This document shows positions 1,089 through 38,529 of a DNA stretch of 64,000 bases, one piece after another. The stretch comes from Microlunatus endophyticus (GTDB taxonomy: Bacteria > Actinomycetota > Actinomycetes > Propionibacteriales > Propionibacteriaceae), in the NCBI RefSeq assembly GCF_014646195.1, contig NZ_BMMZ01000004.1, forward strand, positions 62,001-126,000, given 5' to 3'. The position numbers and the translations under genes were made by a program. Under the pieces are notes generated by a model, which did not search any database, was not told where the DNA came from, and was given only the letters and a program-made list of their open reading frames with translations. Each line of letters starts with the position of its first letter. The first letter of the stretch is position 1.

Positions 1089-1763
1089 TCAGGCCGGCGT
1101 CGGTTCGGAGGGCTTCGCGTCCGTCGCAGGAGAGGGTTCGGGGGCGGCCGGTCGCTCGCCGGTCAGCACGCCCTGATGGTGCAGTGCGATCGCCTTCGCG
1201 GTGGCGCTGTCCGGTCCGGGCTGGGGTACGAAGAGTGCCTCGCGGTAGTAGCGCAGCTCCTCGATGGACTCCTGGATGTCGGCCAGCGCGCGGTGGTTGC
1301 CGCTCTTGGCCGGCGACTGGTAGTAGACCCGCGGATACCAGCGGCGGGCGAGTTCTTTGATCGAGGAGACGTCCACGTTGCGGTAGTGCACGTGCGATTC
1401 CAGCGCCGGCATGTCGCGGGCCAGGAACGAACGGTCCGTACCGATCGTGTTGCCGGCCAGCGGCGCCTTGCGCGGCTCGGGCACGAACTGGGTGATGTAG
1501 GCCATCACCTTCTCCTCGGCCTCGCGCATCTCCAGACCCGCGTCCAGCTCGGTGAGCAGCCCCGAGTGCTCGTGCATGTTACGGACGAAGTCGCCCATCT
1601 GGTCCAGCGCCTCTTGGCTCGGCTTGATGATGACGTCCACACCGTCGCCGAGCACTTCGAGCTCGGAATCCGTCACCAGCGCTGCTACCTCGATCAAGGC
1701 GTCGTTGGCAAGGTCGAGCCCGGTCATCTCGCAGTCGATCCAGACCAGTAGCTGCTCAGTCAC
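1089..1763 (-). CDS. orn: Oligoribonuclease
   Basis: 224-residue DEDDh 3'-5' exoribonuclease that degrades 2-5-nt RNAs (and pGpG) to mononucleotides in the cytoplasm. ExoI is WIDCEMTGLD near residue 8, the middle has LAGNTIGTDRSFLARDMP, and ExoIII is SGNHRALADIQESIEELRYYR with the catalytic His and Asp. After about residue 185 there is an Ala/Pro-rich tail not needed for the fold. The GTG start at 1763 overlaps the stop of the upstream rhamnosidase gene (GTGA), implying translational coupling of a housekeeping gene to a sugar-inducible one; a separate promoter inside the rhamnosidase gene is likely but not visible. Confidence 0.95.
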   Translation of the reverse strand: MTEQLLVWIDCEMTGLDLANDALIEVAALVTDSELEVLGDGVDVIIKPSQEALDQMGDFVRNMHEHSGLLTELDAGLEMREAEEKVMAYITQFVPEPRKAPLAGNTIGTDRSFLARDMPALESHVHYRNVDVSSIKELARRWYPRVYYQSPAKSGNHRALADIQESIEELRYYREALFVPQPGPDSATAKAIALHHQGVLTGERPAAPEPSPATDAKPSEPTPA

Positions 1764-4720
1764 GCCCGCGAGTCTAGACCTCGGCGTGTTCGACGCAGCA
1801 GTCGTACGGGTCCGAGCAGGCCGTAGTCCCGCGGATGGGTCTGCTGGAATCCCTCACGTCCGACGAACATCAGCACGATGTCCGGGATCTGCTCGTAGTA
1901 GCCGCGAGCCAGCAGCCGGTTGTTCAGTGACGACGACACTCTGACGCGGATCGTGTTCTCGCCGGGGCGGAGATCATCGGTGATGTCGACCACCGGCCGC
2001 GAGGTGTCGAACCCACGCACCGCCCCGTCGTTGACCGTCACTGAGCCGAGACCGCCGGCGGTCGAACCAAGATCAAGAAGCAATCTTCCGCTGCCAAGAT
2101 CATCGAGCCGCACGGTGGCCTGGTAGTCGCCGACTCCGGACACCTCCGCCCCGACCACGTCGATCTGCTGCCAGGGCCGCAGCGGACCGACACCAGCGTT
2201 GATCTTCGTGATCGCGGTGGTCGGGCGTACCTCGCGGCTGACATAGCCCAGCCCGCGATCCTCGGTGATCAGCTGCGGCTCTCCGGCATCCCAGCTCTCC
2301 ACAGTCAGGTCCCAGTCCGCGATCTCGGCGACTTGTTCGTACGCCTCGGGCTCGGTCTCCGGGCCGGCGCCGGTCGAGCGATCGACCGTGATCAATGCGG
2401 TCTCGCCGGGGGAGAGTCGGAGCCGGACGATCGTGTGATCGTCCTCGTACCGCACTCCATCGCGATCATGAACGGTCCCGGTCCAGGCATCGATCGCGGA
2501 CGCGGTGCCGAGACCCGGCAGCCGGATCTCGACCTCGGTCGGATCGCCCGTCTGGTAAAGGAAGTGGTACGCGTACAGGTGCAGTAGGTCGTCGTCCGCC
2601 CGCAGATGGGTGAGGATGCTCGGATTGTCCCGTACGAATTCGGCCCGACCCTGCACGCCGAGACTGCGGAGCGCGGACACCGTGCCGACGGGATCGTCGA
2701 TCTCGACCACGGTCGGCAACTGCAGCAGCTCGGCGATGATCGTGGTCAACTCGTTGTCACGATGATCGAGTCCCGGTGTGCGGACGGCCGCCCGTTCGTG
2801 GCTGATGTAGTGGCCCATCATCGCCAGTCGTGCCTCCCGAGTTCCGTGCACCAGAAGGAGCCTGAGTCCCTCCCGGGCCCAACCGAGCAGGTGCGCGGCG
2901 ACATCGGCGTCGAGTTCGCTCTGGTAGATGATTAGGGCCTGATATCCGGGGCCGTCCGGTTGGACGAGACCGTCGGCGTACGAGACGTCGCCGCGCAGCA
3001 GCAGCGATCCGTCGAAGAATTCGTACGTCCATCCGGCGTCCTGCATGCCGAGGTCGGACCACCAGCGGTTGTCCCGGTTGCGCATGCCGCGGGTCGCGTA
3101 CGACTCCTCGTCGGGGACCCGCCGTCCGTCGAGATCCACCTCACCGACCCCGGAGACGTTGTCGGTGAAGTGATCCGTACGCAGGATGCCGACATCGATT
3201 CGTGGCAGGCCCTGCCGGAGCAGGTATTGGCAGCGCCCGAGCGCGGCGGTCCACAGCGGATAGAACTCCGCCGCCGGCTGCCGGGTGTCGAAGCGCTCGG
3301 AGAACATCGGCAGCATGCCCTCATGACCTGGCCACTCGGTTGTGTCCTCCGCGCCGGCCGGTGAGGACCAGCCGTGCAACACGGTCTTGGTGATCCCGGC
3401 CGCCAACTGGGTGGCGATGATCTGGTCGTAGAAGCGGTGTTCGAGCATGTGGTTGCGGGTGGTGGCACCGGTCTCGGACGAATACTGCTTGCCGAAGAGA
3501 TGTGCGGGGCCGCCGAGCAGCCGGTAGGCGTCGATCTGGGAACCGAACTCCAGAGACTCGGTCTCGATCCCGTCGACCTCCGGGCCGGGTCGGGTCAGCT
3601 CGAACGGCAATCCGTAGCTGATCTCCGAGCGCAAGCTGATTCCCTGCGTGTGCAGGAATTCCGCGAACGGCCGCAGCATGTTCTCGATGTAGAGGTCGGT
3701 CAGGGTCCTGACATAGTCGTACCGGACCTTGTCGACGGTGATCTTGTGATCGTCGGCCGGTTCGTTGTGATAGGTCGTCGCTGCGGCCATCCAGGCGGAC
3801 CGGGTCAGGAAGGGCAGCCAGGGCGTGATCTCGTAGCCGCGGCGGGACCGAAACTCAGAGGCCACTGATGGCCCCCAGAACATGCCGCCGGCTCCGTAGG
3901 TCGACAGCTCGAGAGAGTCCATGTACATCTGGGTCCGTGGATTCTTCGCGATCTCGGCGCGAAGCTCAGGAGTCAGGACAACGGAGTCCCAGTAGTCGAT
4001 CACGGCGTCAACACCCGCCCGGTCGAGATAGTTGACCGTGTAGTTGATCGACGCCGACGGCGATGCGGTCTGCCCGGTGCCGTGCATCCAGAAGTTGAAC
4101 AGTCGCCACCGGCCTTCAGCGGGTGCTGCCCATTCCAGCTCGTCGCCCTCGACCCGGTCCGACAGGTCAAGGACCGACTCGACGTCAAGGGTCGCGGCCG
4201 GGTCGGTCTCAGCGATCACCCGTGCAGCGACCACGGCAATCAGGACCTGATCGCGGATCACCCCGCGGTGGCCGGGGATGATCGACTCCGGCAGGGGAGC
4301 GTCGAGGTCGATCCGGGGCAGCGGCCCGGACCGGGATGTCCCGGCGGCCACGTCCTCGATCGTGACGTCGAGTTCCTTGGCCGCTGCGGCATGGTCTGGG
4401 TCGATGGTCGGCAGGTTGGCATTGGACCAGTTGGTGCCGGAGGTGAAGCTGACCGACATCCCGCGCCGGGTTGTCTCCTCGACCACGATCTGCGAGTCGT
4501 GCACCCACTCCTCGGCGCCCCAGCCGTATCTGCTGTGGTCGACCGCGGCCTCGTCCATGGCGAGGAATTCCATCCCGCCGAAACCGAGCCGGTGCGCCTC
4601 GCCGATCTCGTGCCGCAGGGTCTCGTCGGTGTGCAGGCCCTCGGCCAGCCACCAGCGCAACTCCGGCCGGAATTCGATGCCGGGCTCGGCGATCCGCCGG
4701 ACCAACTCCTCGATGGACAT
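1760..4720 (-). CDS. Glycoside hydrolase, GH106-type alpha-L-rhamnosidase
   Basis: 986-residue protein without a signal peptide, so probably cytoplasmic, expected to release L-rhamnose from rhamnosides. It starts ELVRRIAEPGIEFRPELRWW, followed by GFGGMEFLAMDE, FTSGTNWSNANLPT, GAGGMFWGPSVASEFRSRRGY and FGKQYSSETGAT, the order seen in the large GH106/'glycosyl hydrolase' group; the C-terminal 200 residues look like a beta-sandwich. The start at 4720 is preferred over an upstream ATG at 4756 because AAGGGAGAA sits just before it and because the longer version would run through the operator at 4744-4755. That operator links it to the rhamnose locus at 33-38 kb, supporting the rhamnosidase assignment. 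Exact substrate is inferred. Confidence 0.82.
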   Translation of the reverse strand: MSIEELVRRIAEPGIEFRPELRWWLAEGLHTDETLRHEIGEAHRLGFGGMEFLAMDEAAVDHSRYGWGAEEWVHDSQIVVEETTRRGMSVSFTSGTNWSNANLPTIDPDHAAAAKELDVTIEDVAAGTSRSGPLPRIDLDAPLPESIIPGHRGVIRDQVLIAVVAARVIAETDPAATLDVESVLDLSDRVEGDELEWAAPAEGRWRLFNFWMHGTGQTASPSASINYTVNYLDRAGVDAVIDYWDSVVLTPELRAEIAKNPRTQMYMDSLELSTYGAGGMFWGPSVASEFRSRRGYEITPWLPFLTRSAWMAAATTYHNEPADDHKITVDKVRYDYVRTLTDLYIENMLRPFAEFLHTQGISLRSEISYGLPFELTRPGPEVDGIETESLEFGSQIDAYRLLGGPAHLFGKQYSSETGATTRNHMLEHRFYDQIIATQLAAGITKTVLHGWSSPAGAEDTTEWPGHEGMLPMFSERFDTRQPAAEFYPLWTAALGRCQYLLRQGLPRIDVGILRTDHFTDNVSGVGEVDLDGRRVPDEESYATRGMRNRDNRWWSDLGMQDAGWTYEFFDGSLLLRGDVSYADGLVQPDGPGYQALIIYQSELDADVAAHLLGWAREGLRLLLVHGTREARLAMMGHYISHERAAVRTPGLDHRDNELTTIIAELLQLPTVVEIDDPVGTVSALRSLGVQGRAEFVRDNPSILTHLRADDDLLHLYAYHFLYQTGDPTEVEIRLPGLGTASAIDAWTGTVHDRDGVRYEDDHTIVRLRLSPGETALITVDRSTGAGPETEPEAYEQVAEIADWDLTVESWDAGEPQLITEDRGLGYVSREVRPTTAITKINAGVGPLRPWQQIDVVGAEVSGVGDYQATVRLDDLGSGRLLLDLGSTAGGLGSVTVNDGAVRGFDTSRPVVDITDDLRPGENTIRVRVSSSLNNRLLARGYYEQIPDIVLMFVGREGFQQTHPRDYGLLGPVRLLRRTRRGLDSRA

Positions 4721-4743: not shown

Positions 4744-4755
4744 TGAAACGATCCA
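4744..4755. promoter_or_regulatory. Predicted LacI-family operator upstream of the rhamnosidase
   Basis: TGAAACGATCCA, lying 24-35 bases upstream of the rhamnosidase ATG. It differs at one position from TGAAACGATTCA downstream of the rhaI promoter (33701-33712). Regulation by the same LacI protein is inferred from this match and the shared substrate. Confidence 0.65.
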
Positions 4756-4804: not shown

Positions 4805-7123
4805 CTACCTCACAGGCAGCAGCTGGAGTCGGTCGAGGGTGTCGACCATAGCCCGGGCGAGGCGCTTGGACCCGTCGATGCTGGGGTGGGTGTGGTCCGG
4901 TGCCGCGTAGCGGGGCTCGAGGCGCGACGGGTCGGCGTCGGACCGGATCGCGGCGTCGAAGTCGACGTACTCGTGGCCGGACGTACGGATCCAGGTGTTC
5001 AGGTCCTGGCGGAGTTCTTCGCGGTGTGCGTCGACGCGGAGCTCGGGTGCGAGCGGGGTGATCGTCGCGAGAACCACTGTGATTCCAGCCGCCTCGGCAC
5101 GATCGATGAGTTCCTGATAGCCGGCGACGAGTTGCGCGAGAGTGGGCATCTCCTCGATGGCGGTGACGCGGCCGGGCAGTCCCCAGTCGTTGCTGTTGTA
5201 GGCGATGACGAGGTGGGTGGCGCCGGCGGTTCCGAGCACGTCGTCGTCGAAGCGGGTCAGTCCTGCCTGTCCCCAGGAGGGGGTCTGTGGTGGCGCGTCG
5301 AGCCGGACACGGTTTCCGGAGATGCCGCGGTTGACGACGGCGATCGCGGCATCCTCGGGAAGCAGGTCGGCGGTGTACTGCGGCCATCCCATGGCGGTGC
5401 TGGAACCGCCGAACGCCACGACGACCGCCTTCGGCTCGGTCCCTGCGACCTCAACCGTGCGCAGGAACGGGCCACCGGCGGGCAGCGACCAGCCGGTCCC
5501 ATCGGGCTCGGCATCCGCATCCGGGGCCGTGCCCGTGTTGGGCGCCGGGAACTCGCGGGACTCGTCGACGGCCGCCGGTGCCGAACCCTCGAGCGGGAAC
5601 GGGAGGGATTCGACGAAGTCCCCGGGGAGCGAGCGGTCGAAGCGGAAGCCCGCTGCGGTCGCGTACGGGGTGGGACCGGGCAGGTAGACGTCGACGAGGA
5701 TGTCGTCGCCCTTGGCCACATTCAGCTCGATCGGATCGGTCCACCGCGAGGCACCGACCGGGATCTCCACGGACGGTTGTCCGTTGAAGGTGGCTCCGAC
5801 GAACCGGCTCCCGACGCCGATCGCGGCATGCCCGATGCGGACAGGGCCGTCGGCGAAGCGGTTGCTGAGCTCCACTCGGATCTGGCTGCCGCCGACTCCG
5901 GCCGGCACGCTCATCCGTACGGTGATGTCGTCGAAGTCCGGTTCGTCGTCCTCGCCGCGGTAGTCGGACACCGCCTGTCCCCAGGCCGGAACCCAGTCCA
6001 GGCCGTGGCCGCCGATGAACCCGATGAACGCGTACGGCGCCCGCTCGCCCAGGCACAACTCCTGGATCACCTGAGCCTCGGTGGCTTCGTCGCGGCTGCG
6101 GGCGAACATCGTCTCCTCGAAACCGGCTAGGGCCGCCTCCTGGTCATCCGGGTGGGCGGCCAACGCCAGCGCGAGCTCGGCGCCGTCGAGCATGGCCAGG
6201 TTCGCACCCTCGCCCGAGGGCGGCATCAGATGCGCGGCATCCCCGATCAGCGTGACGCCGGGAACGCGGCTCCAGCGGTGATCATCCGGCAGCGCGTGGA
6301 TCATCCGGGCGACCGGCGGCCGCTCGCCGTCGGTGATCAGGGCCAGCAGCTCAGGCGCCCAGCCCTCGAATTCCGCGGCGATCCGCGCGGTCGCGGCAGC
6401 GGCATCACCGAAGTCGATGCCGGCGAACCACTCCTCCGACCGGGCGAGTTCGACGTAGGTATGGATCACTCCGCTCGCTTCGCGGTGTGCGGTGATCCCT
6501 CTGCCGGGCCTCAGCGCGTACATCACCCCGGCGCCCACAGCGGCGGCGGTTGCCGGATGGCGTTCGTCGACGTCGTAGAGGTAGGTCTCGACGAAAGTCA
6601 TGTCCGAATAGACCGGGTTCGCGGACGAGAGGACCGGGCGGACCTTCGACCAGGCGCCATCGGCGCCGACCAGCATCTCTGCGGTCACGGTCGAGCCGTC
6701 CGCGAAGCTCAGCCCGTGGCGGCCGTCGCCCAGCGCAGCCACGCCGGTGAGCTTGCGCCCCCACTGGACCGTCCCCTCGGGGAGCGATTCCAGGAGAAGC
6801 CGGCGAAGATCGCCGCGGAGCGCCTCCGGCCGGCCACCGGTGCCGTCGTCGGGTTCGTCGAAGAGCAGCACGCCCCGCGGGTCAAGGACCCGGGTCGCTT
6901 CGGCGCCCGCGTGGATGATCGCCCGGAACTCCGCGGTCAGCCCGGCGGCCTCGAGCGCCCGCTGACCGGTGTGCTCGTGGATGTCGAGCTGTCCACCTTG
7001 GGTACGCGCCCCCGCCGAGGCATCCGCCTCGTAGACGGTCGCCGGGATCCCGTGCAGGTGGAGCACGCGCGCGAGTGTCAGGCCGCCGAGGCCGGCTCCG
7101 ATGATCGTCATTGGTCTGGCCAT
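4805..7123 (-). CDS. Fusion protein: FAD-dependent monooxygenase + SGNH/GDSL hydrolase
   Basis: One uninterrupted 772-residue frame holding two enzymes. Residues 1-370 are a TetX/PHBH-like flavoprotein monooxygenase: Rossmann IIGAGLGGLTLA at 7-18, GADGAW at 153-158, and GDAAHLMPPSGEGANLAM at about 294-311. Residues from about 375 form an SGNH esterase with its own N-terminal beta domain (WVPAWGQAVSDYRG onward) and catalytic blocks GGSSTAMG (nucleophile Ser about 574), NRGISGNRV (598-606), NSND (643-646) and DHTH (743-746). Each half is near full length for its family. The junction codon at about 6001 is CTG (Leu375), where free-standing SGNH relatives would be expected to have their initiator Met. 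Upstream are a consensus -35 and two TetR-type operators. No signal peptide. Substrates are unknown; an assembly artefact cannot be excluded. Confidence 0.85.
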   Translation of the reverse strand: MARPMTIIGAGLGGLTLARVLHLHGIPATVYEADASAGARTQGGQLDIHEHTGQRALEAAGLTAEFRAIIHAGAEATRVLDPRGVLLFDEPDDGTGGRPEALRGDLRRLLLESLPEGTVQWGRKLTGVAALGDGRHGLSFADGSTVTAEMLVGADGAWSKVRPVLSSANPVYSDMTFVETYLYDVDERHPATAAAVGAGVMYALRPGRGITAHREASGVIHTYVELARSEEWFAGIDFGDAAAATARIAAEFEGWAPELLALITDGERPPVARMIHALPDDHRWSRVPGVTLIGDAAHLMPPSGEGANLAMLDGAELALALAAHPDDQEAALAGFEETMFARSRDEATEAQVIQELCLGERAPYAFIGFIGGHGLDWVPAWGQAVSDYRGEDDEPDFDDITVRMSVPAGVGGSQIRVELSNRFADGPVRIGHAAIGVGSRFVGATFNGQPSVEIPVGASRWTDPIELNVAKGDDILVDVYLPGPTPYATAAGFRFDRSLPGDFVESLPFPLEGSAPAAVDESREFPAPNTGTAPDADAEPDGTGWSLPAGGPFLRTVEVAGTEPKAVVVAFGGSSTAMGWPQYTADLLPEDAAIAVVNRGISGNRVRLDAPPQTPSWGQAGLTRFDDDVLGTAGATHLVIAYNSNDWGLPGRVTAIEEMPTLAQLVAGYQELIDRAEAAGITVVLATITPLAPELRVDAHREELRQDLNTWIRTSGHEYVDFDAAIRSDADPSRLEPRYAAPDHTHPSIDGSKRLARAMVDTLDRLQLLPVR

Positions 7124-31943: not shown

Positions 31944-32591
31944 TCAGAGCCAGTGTGATTGGGTCTTGTCCTCGTCGTGCTCGGGATCGGGGCGGCGGAA
32001 TTCGGCCCGCCAGCGGATCCGGCCGTCGCCGACCGGCACCGTTTCCACGACCGCGCGTTCGACGCCGTCGACGGCGAAATAGCCGAGCTCGTCCCCGGTG
32101 AGCGGCCACGGCGGTCCGTCCGGGATCTCGTCACCGACCCGGGCACCGGAGATCACCACCAGCAGGCCACCGATACTGACCAGCGAGGCGACTCCGGCGG
32201 CCGCCTGCTCGTGCAGGTCCGGCGGCAGCGCCTGGACCGTGATGCTCTCGATCACCAGGTCGTACGCCTGGTGCCAGTCCGGCGGCAAGTCCAGCAGGTC
32301 GACCTGCCGGTAGTGGACCGGGGAGTCGGGATAGCGGTGTCTGGCCAGCTCGAGAGCCGTCGGCGCGATGTCGAAGGCGGTCGTGTCGAATCCCCGCGCC
32401 GCGATCAGCTCCGCGTCGTTGCCGAGTCCGCAGCCCACCACAACGGCGCGTTTGCCGGCCGCCTCCAGCGGATGGTTGGCCAGCCACTCGACCAACAGCG
32501 GGTTGGGGTAGTCCCGATCCCACGGGACGTCGCGGTCGCCGGCCGCGGCCTCGGCGTACAGGGCCTCGAACCAAGCAGTCGCGTCACTCAT
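31944..32591 (-). CDS. Class I SAM-dependent methyltransferase
   Basis: 215 residues. Starts with ATAWFEALYAEAAAGDRDVP and WDRDYPNPLLVEWL, then motif I KRAVVVGCGLGNDAELIAAR, DTTAFDIAPTALELAR and VDLLDLPPDWHQAYDLVIES. This layout resembles thiopurine/thiol methyltransferase-like (TPMT/Tam-like) enzymes. The ATG overlaps the stop of the rhamnose LacI gene (ATGA), so it is co-transcribed with that regulator, yet no role in rhamnose use is known to me. It could be a passenger gene or modify a rhamnose-linked product. Confidence 0.85.
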   Translation of the reverse strand: MSDATAWFEALYAEAAAGDRDVPWDRDYPNPLLVEWLANHPLEAAGKRAVVVGCGLGNDAELIAARGFDTTAFDIAPTALELARHRYPDSPVHYRQVDLLDLPPDWHQAYDLVIESITVQALPPDLHEQAAAGVASLVSIGGLLVVISGARVGDEIPDGPPWPLTGDELGYFAVDGVERAVVETVPVGDGRIRWRAEFRRPDPEHDEDKTQSHWL

Positions 32592-33628
32592 ACCTGCCCT
32601 GCCGTCGATGCTCGGATCACCAGTTCGGGCTGGAAGACCACCTGCTCGTGTTCGACCTCCTGGCCGGACCCGATCGCTTCCAATTCCCGCAGCAGCAGCT
32701 CCACGGCGGTCCTGCCGATCAGCTCGGCGGGCTGGCGGATCGAGGACAGCGGGATCACTGTCGCGGCGGCGAAATCGATGTCGTCGTAGCCGATCAGCGC
32801 GATGTCACCCGGCACCAGGCGATGATCCAGCATCGCCAGCGACTGCATCAACCCGATCGCCACCAGATCGTTGGCGGCGAAGACGGCGTCCGGTCGCTCG
32901 CCGGCGGCGCGTGCGGCCAGTGCTGCTCCGACCGCGTGTCCGTCGCCGACCACCAGCCCGTCGGTCTCGATGATCTCCAGGCTCGCGCCGCTGCCGGCCA
33001 CTGCCTGCTCGGCGCCGGTCCGCCGGTCGGCGACCTGTCGCAGTCCTGCCGGTCCGCCGACGAAGGCGATCCGCCGCCGACCGGTCTGCACCAGGTGCTC
33101 GACGGCCAGCCGTCCGCCGGCGACATCGTCGACCGAGACCGACGAGTACGGATGATCTTCGACCAGCCGGTCGACCAGCACCGTCGGCGTACCGCGGCGT
33201 CCCAGTCGCCGGAGCCGTTCGTAGACGTCGCCGACCGGGGAGATCAGCAGGCCGCGGACCCGCTGCTGCTCGAAGAGATCGAGGTGGGCGGCCTCGCGGC
33301 TCTCGGTCTCGTCCGAATTGCCCAGCAGGACGGACAAGCCGTCCTGGGCGGCCCGGTCCTCGACCCCGCGGGACACGGCGGTGAAGAACGGATTCCCGAC
33401 GTCCAGCACGACCAGACCGAGGGTGCGGCTGAGGCCGGCGCGCAACTGGCGGGCGGCGTCGTTGCGGACGAAGCCCAATTCGTCGATCGCATCCTGCACC
33501 CGTTTGCGGGTCGCTTCGGCGACCTTGTCGGGCCGGTTCAAGACATTCGACACCGTGCCCAGCGCCACACCGGCGCGCTCTGCGACGTCTCTGATGCTCA
33601 CCGCAGGTGAACGTTTCACCACAGCCAC
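32588..33628 (-). CDS. LacI-family transcriptional regulator of rhamnose genes
   Basis: 346 residues. HTH VSIRDVAERAGVALGTVSNV then LNRPDKVAEATRKRVQDAID (hinge), followed by the periplasmic-binding-like sensor TLGLVVLDVGNPFFTAVSRG, GTPTVLVDRL, PDAVFAANDLVAIGLMQSL and ALIGYDDIDFAAATVIPLSS. It faces rhaI and is very likely its repressor; the effector would be L-rhamnose or a catabolite. The start is the GTG at 33628; closer GTG codons (33622, 33619) are possible. A perfect-armed palindrome inside its first codons (33606-33620) may give autoregulation. Confidence 0.92.
   Translation of the reverse strand: MAVVKRSPAVSIRDVAERAGVALGTVSNVLNRPDKVAEATRKRVQDAIDELGFVRNDAARQLRAGLSRTLGLVVLDVGNPFFTAVSRGVEDRAAQDGLSVLLGNSDETESREAAHLDLFEQQRVRGLLISPVGDVYERLRRLGRRGTPTVLVDRLVEDHPYSSVSVDDVAGGRLAVEHLVQTGRRRIAFVGGPAGLRQVADRRTGAEQAVAGSGASLEIIETDGLVVGDGHAVGAALAARAAGERPDAVFAANDLVAIGLMQSLAMLDHRLVPGDIALIGYDDIDFAAATVIPLSSIRQPAELIGRTAVELLLRELEAIGSGQEVEHEQVVFQPELVIRASTAGQV
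33606..33620. promoter_or_regulatory. Palindrome inside the first codons of the LacI gene
   Basis: GGTGAACGTTTCACC has 6-bp perfect arms (GGTGAA/TTCACC) around CGT. Its core TGAA-CGT-TTCA resembles the rhaI operator TGAA-ACGA-TTCA with one base fewer in the centre, so it may be an auxiliary or autoregulatory site. Confidence 0.45.
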
Positions 33629-33661: not shown

Positions 33662-33712
33662 TTGACGTGCCGCGCGGCCGCCAGTAATCTCACTGCCGTC
33701 TGAAACGATTCA
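33662..33712 (+). promoter_or_regulatory. rhaI promoter and LacI-type operator
   Basis: TTGACG at 33662-33667 and TAATCT at 33685-33690 are separated by exactly 17 bases, a good sigma-70-type promoter. The operator TGAAACGATTCA (33701-33712) begins about 4 bases after the expected transcription start, the classic roadblock position for a LacI repressor. Confidence 0.75.
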
Positions 33713-33766: not shown

Positions 33767-34933
33767 ATGCCGAGCTTCGACCAGATTGTCCCGCTGTTGG
33801 AGCAGCAGGCGATCGAACTGCCCTCCTGGGCTTTCGGCAATTCCGGCACCCGCTTCAAAGTCTTCACCCAGCCCGGCGTCCCGCGCGATCCGGAGGAGAA
33901 GATCGCCGACGCGGCCAAGGTCAACGAGTTCACCGGGCTGGCACCGACCGTCGCCCTGCACATCCCGTGGGACAAGGTCGACGACTACGACAAGCTCGCC
34001 GGCTACGCCGCTGATCATGGTGTCGCGCTCGGGACGATCAACGCCAACACCTTCCAGGACGACGATTACAAGTTCGGCAGCCTGGCCCACCACGACAGTG
34101 CGGTCCGGTCCAAGGCACTTGATCACATGTACGAGTGCATCGAGATCATGAACGCCACCGGCTCCCGCGATCTCAAGATCTGGCTGGCCGACGGCACCAA
34201 CTACCCGGGTCAGGGTGATCTTCGGCGCCGCCAGGACTGGCTGGCCGACTCGCTGCAGAAGGTCTATGACCGGATCGGCGATGATCAACGGCTGATCCTG
34301 GAGTACAAGTTCTTCGAGCCGTCCTTCTACCACACCGACGTGCCGGACTGGGGGACTGCCTACGCCCAGACTCTGGCGCTGGGGGACAGGGCGAAGGTGT
34401 GCCTGGACACCGGTCACCACGCACCCGGCACCAACATCGAATTCATCGTGGCGCAGTTGTTGCGGCTTGGAAAGCTCGGCTCCTTCGACTTCAACTCCCG
34501 CTTCTACGCCGACGACGACCTGATCGTGGGAGCCGCGGATCCCTTCCAGCTCTTCAGGATCCTGCACGAGGTGATCAGCAACGGCGGCTACGGCACCGAT
34601 TCCGACGTCGCCTTCATGCTGGACCAGTGTCACAACCTCGAGCCCAAGATCCCCGGCCAGATCCGGTCGGTGCTCACCGTTTCGGAAATGACCGCACGGG
34701 CCCTGCTCGTCGATCGCGAGGCACTGGCCGAGGCCCAGACCGCGGGCGATGTGCTCGGCGCCAACCAGGTGCTGATGGACGCCTTCTACACCGACGTCCG
34801 TGCTGATCTTGCCGACTGGCGGGTCAGCCGCGGTCTGCCCGCGGATCCGATGGCGGCCTACACCAAGAGCGGGTACGCCGAGCAGATCGTCGCCGAGCGG
34901 ATCGGTGGCTCCCAGGCCGGCTGGGGCGCCTAG
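33767..34933 (+). CDS. rhaI: L-rhamnose isomerase
   Basis: 388 residues of the RhaI (Pseudomonas stutzeri/actinobacterial) type, converting L-rhamnose to L-rhamnulose. Metal and substrate residues appear in the expected barrel strands: LKIWLADGTNYPGQGD, LILEYKFFEPSFYHTD, KVCLDTGHHAPGTNIE and GSFDFNSRFYADDDLIVGAA. ATG 33767 follows AAGGAGAGAAGG. First gene of the rhaI-rhaD-rhaB catabolic set; the promoter and operator lie directly upstream. Confidence 0.95.
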   Translation: MPSFDQIVPLLEQQAIELPSWAFGNSGTRFKVFTQPGVPRDPEEKIADAAKVNEFTGLAPTVALHIPWDKVDDYDKLAGYAADHGVALGTINANTFQDDDYKFGSLAHHDSAVRSKALDHMYECIEIMNATGSRDLKIWLADGTNYPGQGDLRRRQDWLADSLQKVYDRIGDDQRLILEYKFFEPSFYHTDVPDWGTAYAQTLALGDRAKVCLDTGHHAPGTNIEFIVAQLLRLGKLGSFDFNSRFYADDDLIVGAADPFQLFRILHEVISNGGYGTDSDVAFMLDQCHNLEPKIPGQIRSVLTVSEMTARALLVDREALAEAQTAGDVLGANQVLMDAFYTDVRADLADWRVSRGLPADPMAAYTKSGYAEQIVAERIGGSQAGWGA

Positions 34934-35038: not shown

Positions 35039-37072
35039 ATGAACGAGACTGTCCAGGAGTTGCTGACGCGATCCAACCGGCTGGGCGCCGACAAGGAGAA
35101 CACCAACTACGCCGGCGGTAACACCTCGGCCAAGGGCACGACGACCGACCCGGTCACCGGCGAACCGGTGGAACTCCTGTGGGTGAAGGGATCCGGCGGC
35201 GATCTGGGCACGCTCACCGAACCCGGTCTCGCGGTGCTGCGGCTGGACCGGATGCGAGCCCTGCCGAAGGTCTACCCGGGCGTCGAGCGCGAGGACGAGA
35301 TGGTTGCCGCCTTCGACTACTGCCTGCACGGCAAGGGCGGCGCGGCACCGTCGATCGACACGGCGATGCACGGCCTGGTCGACGCACCCCATGTTGATCA
35401 CCTGCATCCCGACTCCGGGATCGCGATCGCCACGGCCGCCGACGGCGAGGAACTGACGCGTACGATCTTCGGCGACCGGGTGGTCTGGGTGCCGTGGCGC
35501 CGTCCGGGATTCCAGCTGGGGTTGGACATCGCGGCGATCAAGAACGAGAACCCGCAGTCGATCGGCTGCATCCTCGGTGGTCACGGGATCACCGCCTGGG
35601 GCGCGACCAGTGCCGAGTGCGAGGCGAATTCGCTGGAGATCATCCGGATCGCCAAGGACTACCTCGCCGAACACGGCGAGGCCGAACCCTTCGGCCCGGT
35701 GCAGCCCGGCTACGAGGCACTGCCAGAGGCCGAACGCCGGAGCAGGGCAGCCGCGCTGGCGCCGCACATCCGGGCGCTGGCCTCGGCCGACAAGCCGATG
35801 GTCGGCCACTTCAGCGACGACGACGCGGTGCTCGACTTCCTGGCCCGCGCCGAGCACCCCCGACTGGCCGCACTCGGCACGTCCTGCCCGGACCACTTCC
35901 TGCGGACCAAGATCAAACCGTTGGTCCTCGACCTGCCCGCGGATGCTCCGGTTGAGGATGCGATCGCGCGGCTGCAGGAGCTGCACGAGCAGTACCGAGC
36001 CGACTACCAGGCCTACTACGCCCGGTACGCCGACCAGGACACCCCGGCGATCCGCGGCGCCGATCCGGCGATCGTGTTGGTCCCGGGCGTCGGGATGTTC
36101 TCCTACGGTGCCAACAAGCAGACTGCCCGGGTCGCGGGGGAGTTCTACCTCAACGCGATCAACGTGATGCGCGGTGCCGAGTCGGTGTCCTCCTACGCCC
36201 CGATCGACGAGAGCGAGAAGTTCCGGATCGAATACTGGGCACTGGAGGAGGCCAAACTGCAACGGCTTCCCAAGCCCCGCAGCCATGCCGGCCGGATCGC
36301 GCTGGTCACCGGAGCGGCCAGCGGGATCGGTAAGGCGATCGCCACTCGGCTGGCCGCCGAAGGTGCCTGCGTGGTGATCGCTGATCTTGACCAAGCGAAG
36401 GCTGCCGAGACTGCTGCCGGTCTGGGCACTAGCGATGCGGCGATCGGGGTCGGCGTCGATGTCACCGATCCGGCCCAGATCACGGCGGCCTTCGAGGCGG
36501 CGGCGCTCGCCTTCGGCGGCGTTGATCTGGTCGTCAACAATGCCGGCCTGTCGATCTCCAAGCCGCTGCTGGACACGACCGAGAAGGACTGGGACCTGCA
36601 GCACGACGTGATGGCCAAGGGTTCCTTCCTGGTCTCGCAGGCCGCGGCCAGGATCATGATCGCCCAGCAGCTGGGCGGCGACATCGTCTACGTGTCCAGC
36701 AAGAATTCGATCTTCGCGGGGCCCAACAACGTCGCCTACAGCGCAGTCAAGGCCGATCAGGCCCATCAGGTACGGCTGCTGGCCGCCGAGCTGGGCGAGC
36801 ACGGGATCCGGGTCAACGGCATCAACCCCGACGCGGTGGTTCGCGGTTCCGGCATCTTCGCCGGCGGTTGGGGTGCCCAGCGCGCCAAGGTGTACGGGGT
36901 GGCCGAAGAAGATCTCGGTGCCTTCTATGCGCAACGGACGCTGCTCAAGCGCGAGGTGCTGCCCGAACACTGTGCCAATGCCGTTGCGGTGCTGACCTCG
37001 GCCGAACTTGATCACACCACCGGGTTGCACATCCCGGTGGACGCCGGGGTCGCCGCCGCGTTCCTGCGATGA
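35039..37072 (+). CDS. rhaD: Bifunctional rhamnulose-1-phosphate aldolase / L-lactaldehyde dehydrogenase
   Basis: 677 residues. Residues 1 to about 410 form a class II aldolase/adducin domain: TNYAGGNTSAKGTT, LWVKGSGGDLGTL and the zinc His pair APHVDHLHPDSGIAI, with ILGGHGITAWG. Residues from about 415 form a short-chain dehydrogenase: RIALVTGAASGIGKAIATRL, VDLVVNNAGLSISKPL, and the catalytic SSKNSIFAGPNNVAYSAVKA (Ser..Tyr..Lys). It splits L-rhamnulose-1-P into DHAP and L-lactaldehyde and oxidises the aldehyde. ATG 35039 has GGAAGG upstream. Its stop overlaps rhaB by four bases. Confidence 0.95.
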   Translation: MNETVQELLTRSNRLGADKENTNYAGGNTSAKGTTTDPVTGEPVELLWVKGSGGDLGTLTEPGLAVLRLDRMRALPKVYPGVEREDEMVAAFDYCLHGKGGAAPSIDTAMHGLVDAPHVDHLHPDSGIAIATAADGEELTRTIFGDRVVWVPWRRPGFQLGLDIAAIKNENPQSIGCILGGHGITAWGATSAECEANSLEIIRIAKDYLAEHGEAEPFGPVQPGYEALPEAERRSRAAALAPHIRALASADKPMVGHFSDDDAVLDFLARAEHPRLAALGTSCPDHFLRTKIKPLVLDLPADAPVEDAIARLQELHEQYRADYQAYYARYADQDTPAIRGADPAIVLVPGVGMFSYGANKQTARVAGEFYLNAINVMRGAESVSSYAPIDESEKFRIEYWALEEAKLQRLPKPRSHAGRIALVTGAASGIGKAIATRLAAEGACVVIADLDQAKAAETAAGLGTSDAAIGVGVDVTDPAQITAAFEAAALAFGGVDLVVNNAGLSISKPLLDTTEKDWDLQHDVMAKGSFLVSQAAARIMIAQQLGGDIVYVSSKNSIFAGPNNVAYSAVKADQAHQVRLLAAELGEHGIRVNGINPDAVVRGSGIFAGGWGAQRAKVYGVAEEDLGAFYAQRTLLKREVLPEHCANAVAVLTSAELDHTTGLHIPVDAGVAAAFLR

Positions 37073-38529
37073 CTGGATCCCCGAGCCCGTCGAAGAGACC
37101 GGTGTTCGCCGCCGTCGACATCGGCGCCTCCGGTGGACGGGTGATCGCCGGGCAGATTCTCGACGGCATGGTCACCACCGAGGTGGTGCACCGCTTCGAC
37201 AACGGGCCGGTCGAGAGCCCCGCCGGCCTGCGCTGGGATCTGACCCGTCTCTACGACCAGGTGATCATCGGGCTGGCTGAGCTGACCAGGCGGTATCCGG
37301 ATGTGATCAGGATCGGCATCGACACCTGGGCCGTCGACTACGGGCTGCTCGATTCCGACGGTCATCTGGTCGAGGAGCCGCACAGTTATCGCGACTCCCG
37401 GACGACCGATGCGGTCGCGGCAGTCCATGATCGGATCGACCCGGCTGAGCTCTATACGATCACCGGGCTGCAGTTCCTGCCGTTCAACACGATCTACCAA
37501 GTGGTAGCCGAGCAGACCTGTCCGGTGTGGGAGCGGGTCGCGAAGATCGTCCTGCTGCCGGATCTGCTGGCCTACTGGCTGACCGGTGATCTTGCCACCG
37601 ACGTGACGAACGCGTCCACCACCGCCCTGATGGACGCCACCACCAGGGACTGGTCCGATCGGCTGCTGGAGATCGCCGGGTTGGGTCGCGACCTGTTGCC
37701 GCCGATCGAGCCGGCCGGGAGCGTACGGGGGAGGATCACCGAGGCTGTCGCCGAACGGACCGGACTGGGCACCGATGTCGTGGTGACCACGGTCGGGTCC
37801 CACGACACCGCATCGGCGGTCGCGGCCGTGCCGGCGACCGAGAAGGGCTTCGGCTACGTGTCCTCGGGTACGTGGTCGCTGGTCGGAATCGAGACCGCGG
37901 ACCCGATCCTGACCGAGGCGAGCCGGGCCGCCAACTTCACCAATGAGGGCGGCGTCGACGGCCGGATCCGCTATCTGCGCAACGAAGGCGGCCTGTGGCT
38001 GCTGCAGGAATCCCTGCGGCACTGGGCGAAGACCGGTCATGATCATGATCTTGGCGAGTTGCTCGAACAGGCCGCCGCACTGCCTGCCGGCGGACCGACG
38101 ATCGACGTCGGGGCTGAGGAGTTCATCGCGCCCGGTGACATGCCGAGCAGGATCGGCGACGCCTGCCGGCGGTCCGGGCAGGCCGCGCCGGAATCCCCGG
38201 CCGCGATCACCCGCTGCGTGCTGGACTCGTTGGCGGCGGCGTACGCCAGGACGCTGCACGAGGCGACGGAGCTGTCAGGTCAGGAGGTTGACAGGCTGCA
38301 CATCGTCGGCGGCGGGTCCCAGAACGAGCTGCTCTGCCAGCTGACCGCGGACGCGACAGGTCTGCCGGTGATCGCGGGGCCGATCGAGGCGACCGCGCTG
38401 GGCAACCTGCTGGTCCAGGCGCGTAGCCACGGCATGGTCAGCGGCAGCCTGGAGGATCTCCGCCGGATCGTCGCCGCGTCCAGCAGCCTGACCCGCTACG
38501 AACCCGTCGACAGGCCGAGGGATCTATAG
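37069..38529 (+). CDS. rhaB: Rhamnulokinase
   Basis: 486 residues, FGGY kinase family. Phosphate-1 loop FAAVDIGASGGRVIAGQI, rhamnulose-site region IGIDTWAVDYGLLDSDGHLV, TGLQFLPFNTIYQV, phosphate-2 TVGSHDTASAVAAVPA, SSGTWSLVGIE and the adenosine motif LHIVGGGSQNELLCQLTADA. It makes L-rhamnulose-1-phosphate for the RhaD domain. The ATGA overlap with rhaD indicates translational coupling. No transporter or mutarotase gene is adjacent, so these must be elsewhere. Confidence 0.96.
   Translation: MTGSPSPSKRPVFAAVDIGASGGRVIAGQILDGMVTTEVVHRFDNGPVESPAGLRWDLTRLYDQVIIGLAELTRRYPDVIRIGIDTWAVDYGLLDSDGHLVEEPHSYRDSRTTDAVAAVHDRIDPAELYTITGLQFLPFNTIYQVVAEQTCPVWERVAKIVLLPDLLAYWLTGDLATDVTNASTTALMDATTRDWSDRLLEIAGLGRDLLPPIEPAGSVRGRITEAVAERTGLGTDVVVTTVGSHDTASAVAAVPATEKGFGYVSSGTWSLVGIETADPILTEASRAANFTNEGGVDGRIRYLRNEGGLWLLQESLRHWAKTGHDHDLGELLEQAAALPAGGPTIDVGAEEFIAPGDMPSRIGDACRRSGQAAPESPAAITRCVLDSLAAAYARTLHEATELSGQEVDRLHIVGGGSQNELLCQLTADATGLPVIAGPIEATALGNLLVQARSHGMVSGSLEDLRRIVAASSSLTRYEPVDRPRDL

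Follow-up and report, generated by a model that had tools for sequence, protein, structure and literature searches.

Does one LacI-family repressor control both the L-rhamnose catabolic genes and a GH106 rhamnosidase gene that lies 29 kb away and unlinked to them in a member of the Propionibacteriaceae? The window is the whole 64,000-nt stretch of DNA that was analysed (contig C4:62001-126000 of genome G000). An earlier note predicted one LacI regulon for rhamnoside hydrolysis, isomerisation, phosphorylation, and cleavage, and this prediction is supported by cross-species operators, by a Kocuria set gathered in one locus, and by the single RhaR-clade protein among the G000 LacI proteins compared. 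It is highly likely that one RhaR repressor governs the rha operon and the distant rhamnosidase gene, GH106a; the analysis shows the sites with their positions and conservation, the identities of the genes, and the single RhaR, while its binding, its repression, and its inducer are inferred from sequence.

The rha locus, GH106a, and their sites

The RhaR protein is encoded at 32588-33628 on the minus strand (the start may be 33601) and matches PF00356 and PF13377 of LacI-family repressors. The rhaR gene is divergent from rhaI-rhaEW-rhaB, and a LacI-type regulator thus stands beside L-rhamnose catabolic genes. The three plus-strand genes are rhaI (33767-34933; L-rhamnose isomerase, TIGR02635, 627 bits, above cut-off), rhaEW (35039-37072; rhamnulose-phosphate aldolase/lactaldehyde dehydrogenase, TIGR02632, 1028 bits, above cut-off), and rhaB (37069-38529; rhamnulokinase, TIGR02627, E 2e-133, below the equivalog cut-off). 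Sequence search places a predicted RhaR operator, TGAAACGATTCA, between rhaR and rhaI at 33701-33712 (plus strand). It starts 10 nt past a possible rhaI promoter, TTGACG-17-TAATCT (33662-33690, plus strand), which was read by eye; a consensus scan flagged a sigma-70-like promoter at neither rhaI nor GH106a. The 3′ end of rhaR shares 4 nt with a methyltransferase-like gene (31944-32591, minus strand), and this neighbour is kept in the genomes G006 and G007 and not in G012.

GH106a (1760-4720, minus strand) encodes a 986-residue α-L-rhamnosidase-like protein with the N-terminus MSIEELVRRIAEPG. The match to PF17132 (E 2e-32; 112.9 bits, cut-off 29) assigns it to family GH106, while its top NCBIfam equivalog match falls well short of the cut-off, and its α-L-rhamnosidase activity is predicted. 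The profile matches agree with the names that the earlier note had given to the GH106, LacI, RhaI, rhamnulokinase, and aldolase-dehydrogenase genes. The candidate RhaR operator of GH106a, TGAAACGATCCA (TGGATCGTTTCA on the gene strand), was found by sequence search at 4744-4755 on the plus strand, 24 nt upstream of the ATG. It differs from TGAAACGATTCA by one base, and both sites lie where the earlier note had put them. One half is off consensus, with TGGA instead of TGAA. Further upstream, a single frame (4805-7111, minus strand) comprises an N-terminal FAD-binding monooxygenase, with a Tet(X)-like best match, and a C-terminal GDSL lipase/esterase, which is an unusual pairing.

A third operator, TGAA-CGT-TTCA, had been proposed inside the LacI gene itself, and it is not supported. 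This sequence, TGAACGTTTCA (33608-33618, at the N-terminal end), is rejected as an autoregulatory operator: it has only 11 bp, which shifts its half-sites by one base relative to those of the 12-bp sites. It is present in G007 and destroyed in G006 and G012, both of which keep the real 12-mer. It is probably a coding coincidence.

The LacI protein that probably reads the sites

In a tree of 29 LacI proteins, those flanking rhaI, GH78, or GH106 fall into one clade (100/100), together with a G016 protein whose neighbour is an SDR gene. G000 contributes only the RhaR of the window to this clade; 15 other LacI proteins of G000 that were compared fall outside. The G000 genome has at least 20 LacI-family matches, and this abundance speaks for an alternative in which a different LacI paralogue reads the GH106a site as a genuine operator, with the rhamnosidase controlled apart from the rha operon. 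Two other genomes lend it further weight. In G002 (C5:235808-235819), an exact copy of TGAAACGATTCA is flanked by an SBP_bac_1 gene and by a LacI gene that does not belong to the RhaR clade, which indicates that the motif is not strictly RhaR-specific and that the same operator can occur with unrelated LacI regulators. In G016, two LacI genes belong to the RhaR clade; the neighbours are GH106a and an ABC transporter for one (L060; C105, 3483-7755) and the SDR gene for the other (L014; C43). The pair possibly reflects a regulon that was split after duplication.

The alternative is nevertheless improbable, given that G000 has a single RhaR-clade member among the LacI proteins compared and that this RhaR is 54% identical to the GH106-side regulator of G016, versus 34% for the next best LacI protein of G000. 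The recognition helix GTVSNVLN is common to RhaR and the Kocuria protein, and the RhaR helix LGTVSNVLN is matched by none of those read in the 15 other G000 LacI proteins, of which a few helices were not resolved. The Kocuria metagenome-assembled genome (NZ_JAUNTS010000006.1) argues in the same direction. Here a GH106a orthologue clusters with rhaR (53% identical), rhaI, and rhaEW. The exact TGAAACGATTCA stands 21 nt before GH106a and again in the rhaR-rhaI gap, and a divergent MFS porter is preceded by an 11-of-12 site. In Kocuria, GH106a and rhaI therefore have a common exact operator and one nearby rhaR.

RhaR-like LacI genes also occur in other families of the order (loci L020, L021, L023-L025, L028, L029, L031, and L036), where they adjoin TGAAAGGTTTCA (TGAAACCTTTCA). 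The centre of this variant is GG/CC rather than CG.

For control of both loci by one repressor, the following mechanism is proposed. The LacI protein at 32588-33628 would be an Actinomycetales-type RhaR repressor with two binding sites: a 12-bp palindrome centred on CG (core TGAAACGWTTCA) that lies shortly after the rhaI promoter, and its one-base variant 29 kb off, just upstream of GH106a. By classical repression, bound RhaR would block transcription until rhamnose taken up by the cell, or one of its products such as rhamnulose, released it. Hydrolysis of rhamnosides inside the cell and the isomerisation, phosphorylation, and cleavage of the sugar would then be switched on together, probably along with uptake.

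Frequency and conservation of the sites

With at most one mismatch from the rhaI site, only 4744 and 33701 are found in the window. The mean in 100 dinucleotide shuffles of the window is 0.08; one of the two matches is the query itself, and the chance of the second is thus about 0.08, with its promoter position not yet counted. At two mismatches or fewer, the seven matches in the window are not above chance (4.7 expected). When 51 upstream regions of the window are ranked with a matrix trained solely on rhaR-adjacent sites, the GH106a promoter comes third, after rhaI and rhaR, which have one common site.

The 5.09-Mb draft genome contains TGAAACGATTCA twice and TGAAACGATCCA once. A genome scan, which the earlier note had proposed as a check, finds TGAAACGATYCA enriched at one mismatch or fewer, with 18 matches versus 2 for the reversed pattern. 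The genome-wide statistics are pattern searches with this reversed-pattern control. Among intergenic matches, the motif has 24 and the reversed motif none. Several one-mismatch matches in the genome are not taken as regulon members, as they are intragenic or precede unrelated genes (Fur, UroD).

Including G000, eight genomes have the exact TGAAACGATTCA beside a rhaR orthologue (the others are G004, G006, G007, G009, G010, G012, and G024). The gene divergent from rhaR is rhaI in G006, G007, G012, and G024, and the same palindrome is thus conserved before rhaI in these four and in G000. In G009 and G010 the divergent gene is a GH78 α-L-rhamnosidase, and in G004 the frame adjoining rhaR carries a GH78 catalytic domain. 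Sister species therefore have the same repressor and operator directly before a rhamnosidase.

Among the other genomes of the genus that were searched, only G012 and G016 contain an orthologue of GH106a (about 70% identity). Their sites, TGGAACGTTTCA and TGATACGTTTCA, respectively, are at the matching place, and all three GH106a genes of the genus have a 10- or 11-of-12 site. The genes upstream of GH106a vary (an FAD/GDSL gene, a ferritin-like gene, and TetR), and the site is still at the same place. An alignment of ten GH106a promoters, which were picked for having sites and include near-duplicate records, shows this position and not its frequency. Within 250 nt upstream, 17 of 61 GH106a loci have a match of at least 10 of 12 bases, and the reversed motif is found at none. 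Most GH106a orthologues outside the genus are without such a site, and the link between operator and GH106a is thus not universal. Rhamnosidase genes with an operator-type site include GH106a (G000, G012, G016, and Kocuria), a second GH106 gene (GH106b), and the GH78 gene beside rhaR.

That the 12-mer at 4744 matches by chance, with GH106a free of LacI control, is very unlikely: although 0.08 expected in the window is alone not overwhelming and the patterns were sought after the fact, the site lies 24 nt from the start codon, is conserved in two orthologues of the genus and in Kocuria, and has no reversed counterpart among the 61 upstream regions.

A wider candidate regulon and its meaning

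Similar sites elsewhere in the genome suggest further candidate members. GH106b (contig C2) has TGAAACCATTCA in G000, G006, G007, and G012; in G010 the exact operator takes its place. A GH78-type gene (C12) has TGAAACGTTGCA 32 nt upstream, and a second GH78 gene (C3) has TAGAACGTTTCA, which is also present before the GH78 genes of G006, G007, and G012. An Opp/Dpp-type ABC importer operon (C1) has the exact 12-mer in G000 and G007, and the site of an MFS porter (C8) matches at 11 of 12 bases in both G000 and G012. With GH106b, the two GH78-type genes, the ABC importer, and the MFS porter as candidates, the predicted regulon is wider than that of the earlier note. An SBP_bac_1 operon of G000 (C5) was set aside, as it has its own LacI gene, to which its TGCAACGATTCA may belong.

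By eye, neither the GH106a nor the GH106b protein has an obvious signal peptide, which would fit intracellular hydrolysis of imported rhamnosides. It is conceivable, though somewhat doubtful, that the RhaR regulon of the genus couples intracellular GH106 and GH78 enzymes to Opp/Dpp-type ABC import of intact rhamnosides, and that RhaR was duplicated in some relatives such as G016 to give rhamnoside hydrolysis its own copy.

LacI-type RhaR regulons that include rhamnosidases have already been predicted for Actinomycetales (Rodionova et al. 2013, PMC3870299). The regulon here resembles them in that its LacI repressor is encoded beside rha genes, its operator is a palindrome, and the rhaEW pathway, rhamnosidases (there ramA and rhmA), and transporters belong to it, a likeness of gene content and of operator type. 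It differs in the unlinked rhamnosidase 29 kb away, and in the Opp/Dpp-type ABC operon with an exact operator. In Chloroflexus aurantiacus, the LacI regulator RhmR and the rhamnosidase gene rhmA belong to a rhamnose-induced operon (PMC3870299), and a LacI regulator of a rhamnosidase gene is likewise predicted here. However, C. aurantiacus has separate regulators for rha (a DeoR-type RhaR) and rhm (RhmR), whereas one is predicted for both in G000. The DeoR-type RhaR of Chloroflexus responds to rhamnulose and not to rhamnose (PMC3870299), and the inducer here is therefore not to be assumed.

The regulon is very probably real but ordinary, as its arrangement has already been predicted for relatives, and the understanding of such regulons is unchanged by this result. 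For the use of plant rhamnosides in Propionibacteriaceae, it provides a regulon that is concrete and testable, and likely physiological roles for a number of GH106 and GH78 enzymes and transporters whose genes are unlinked.
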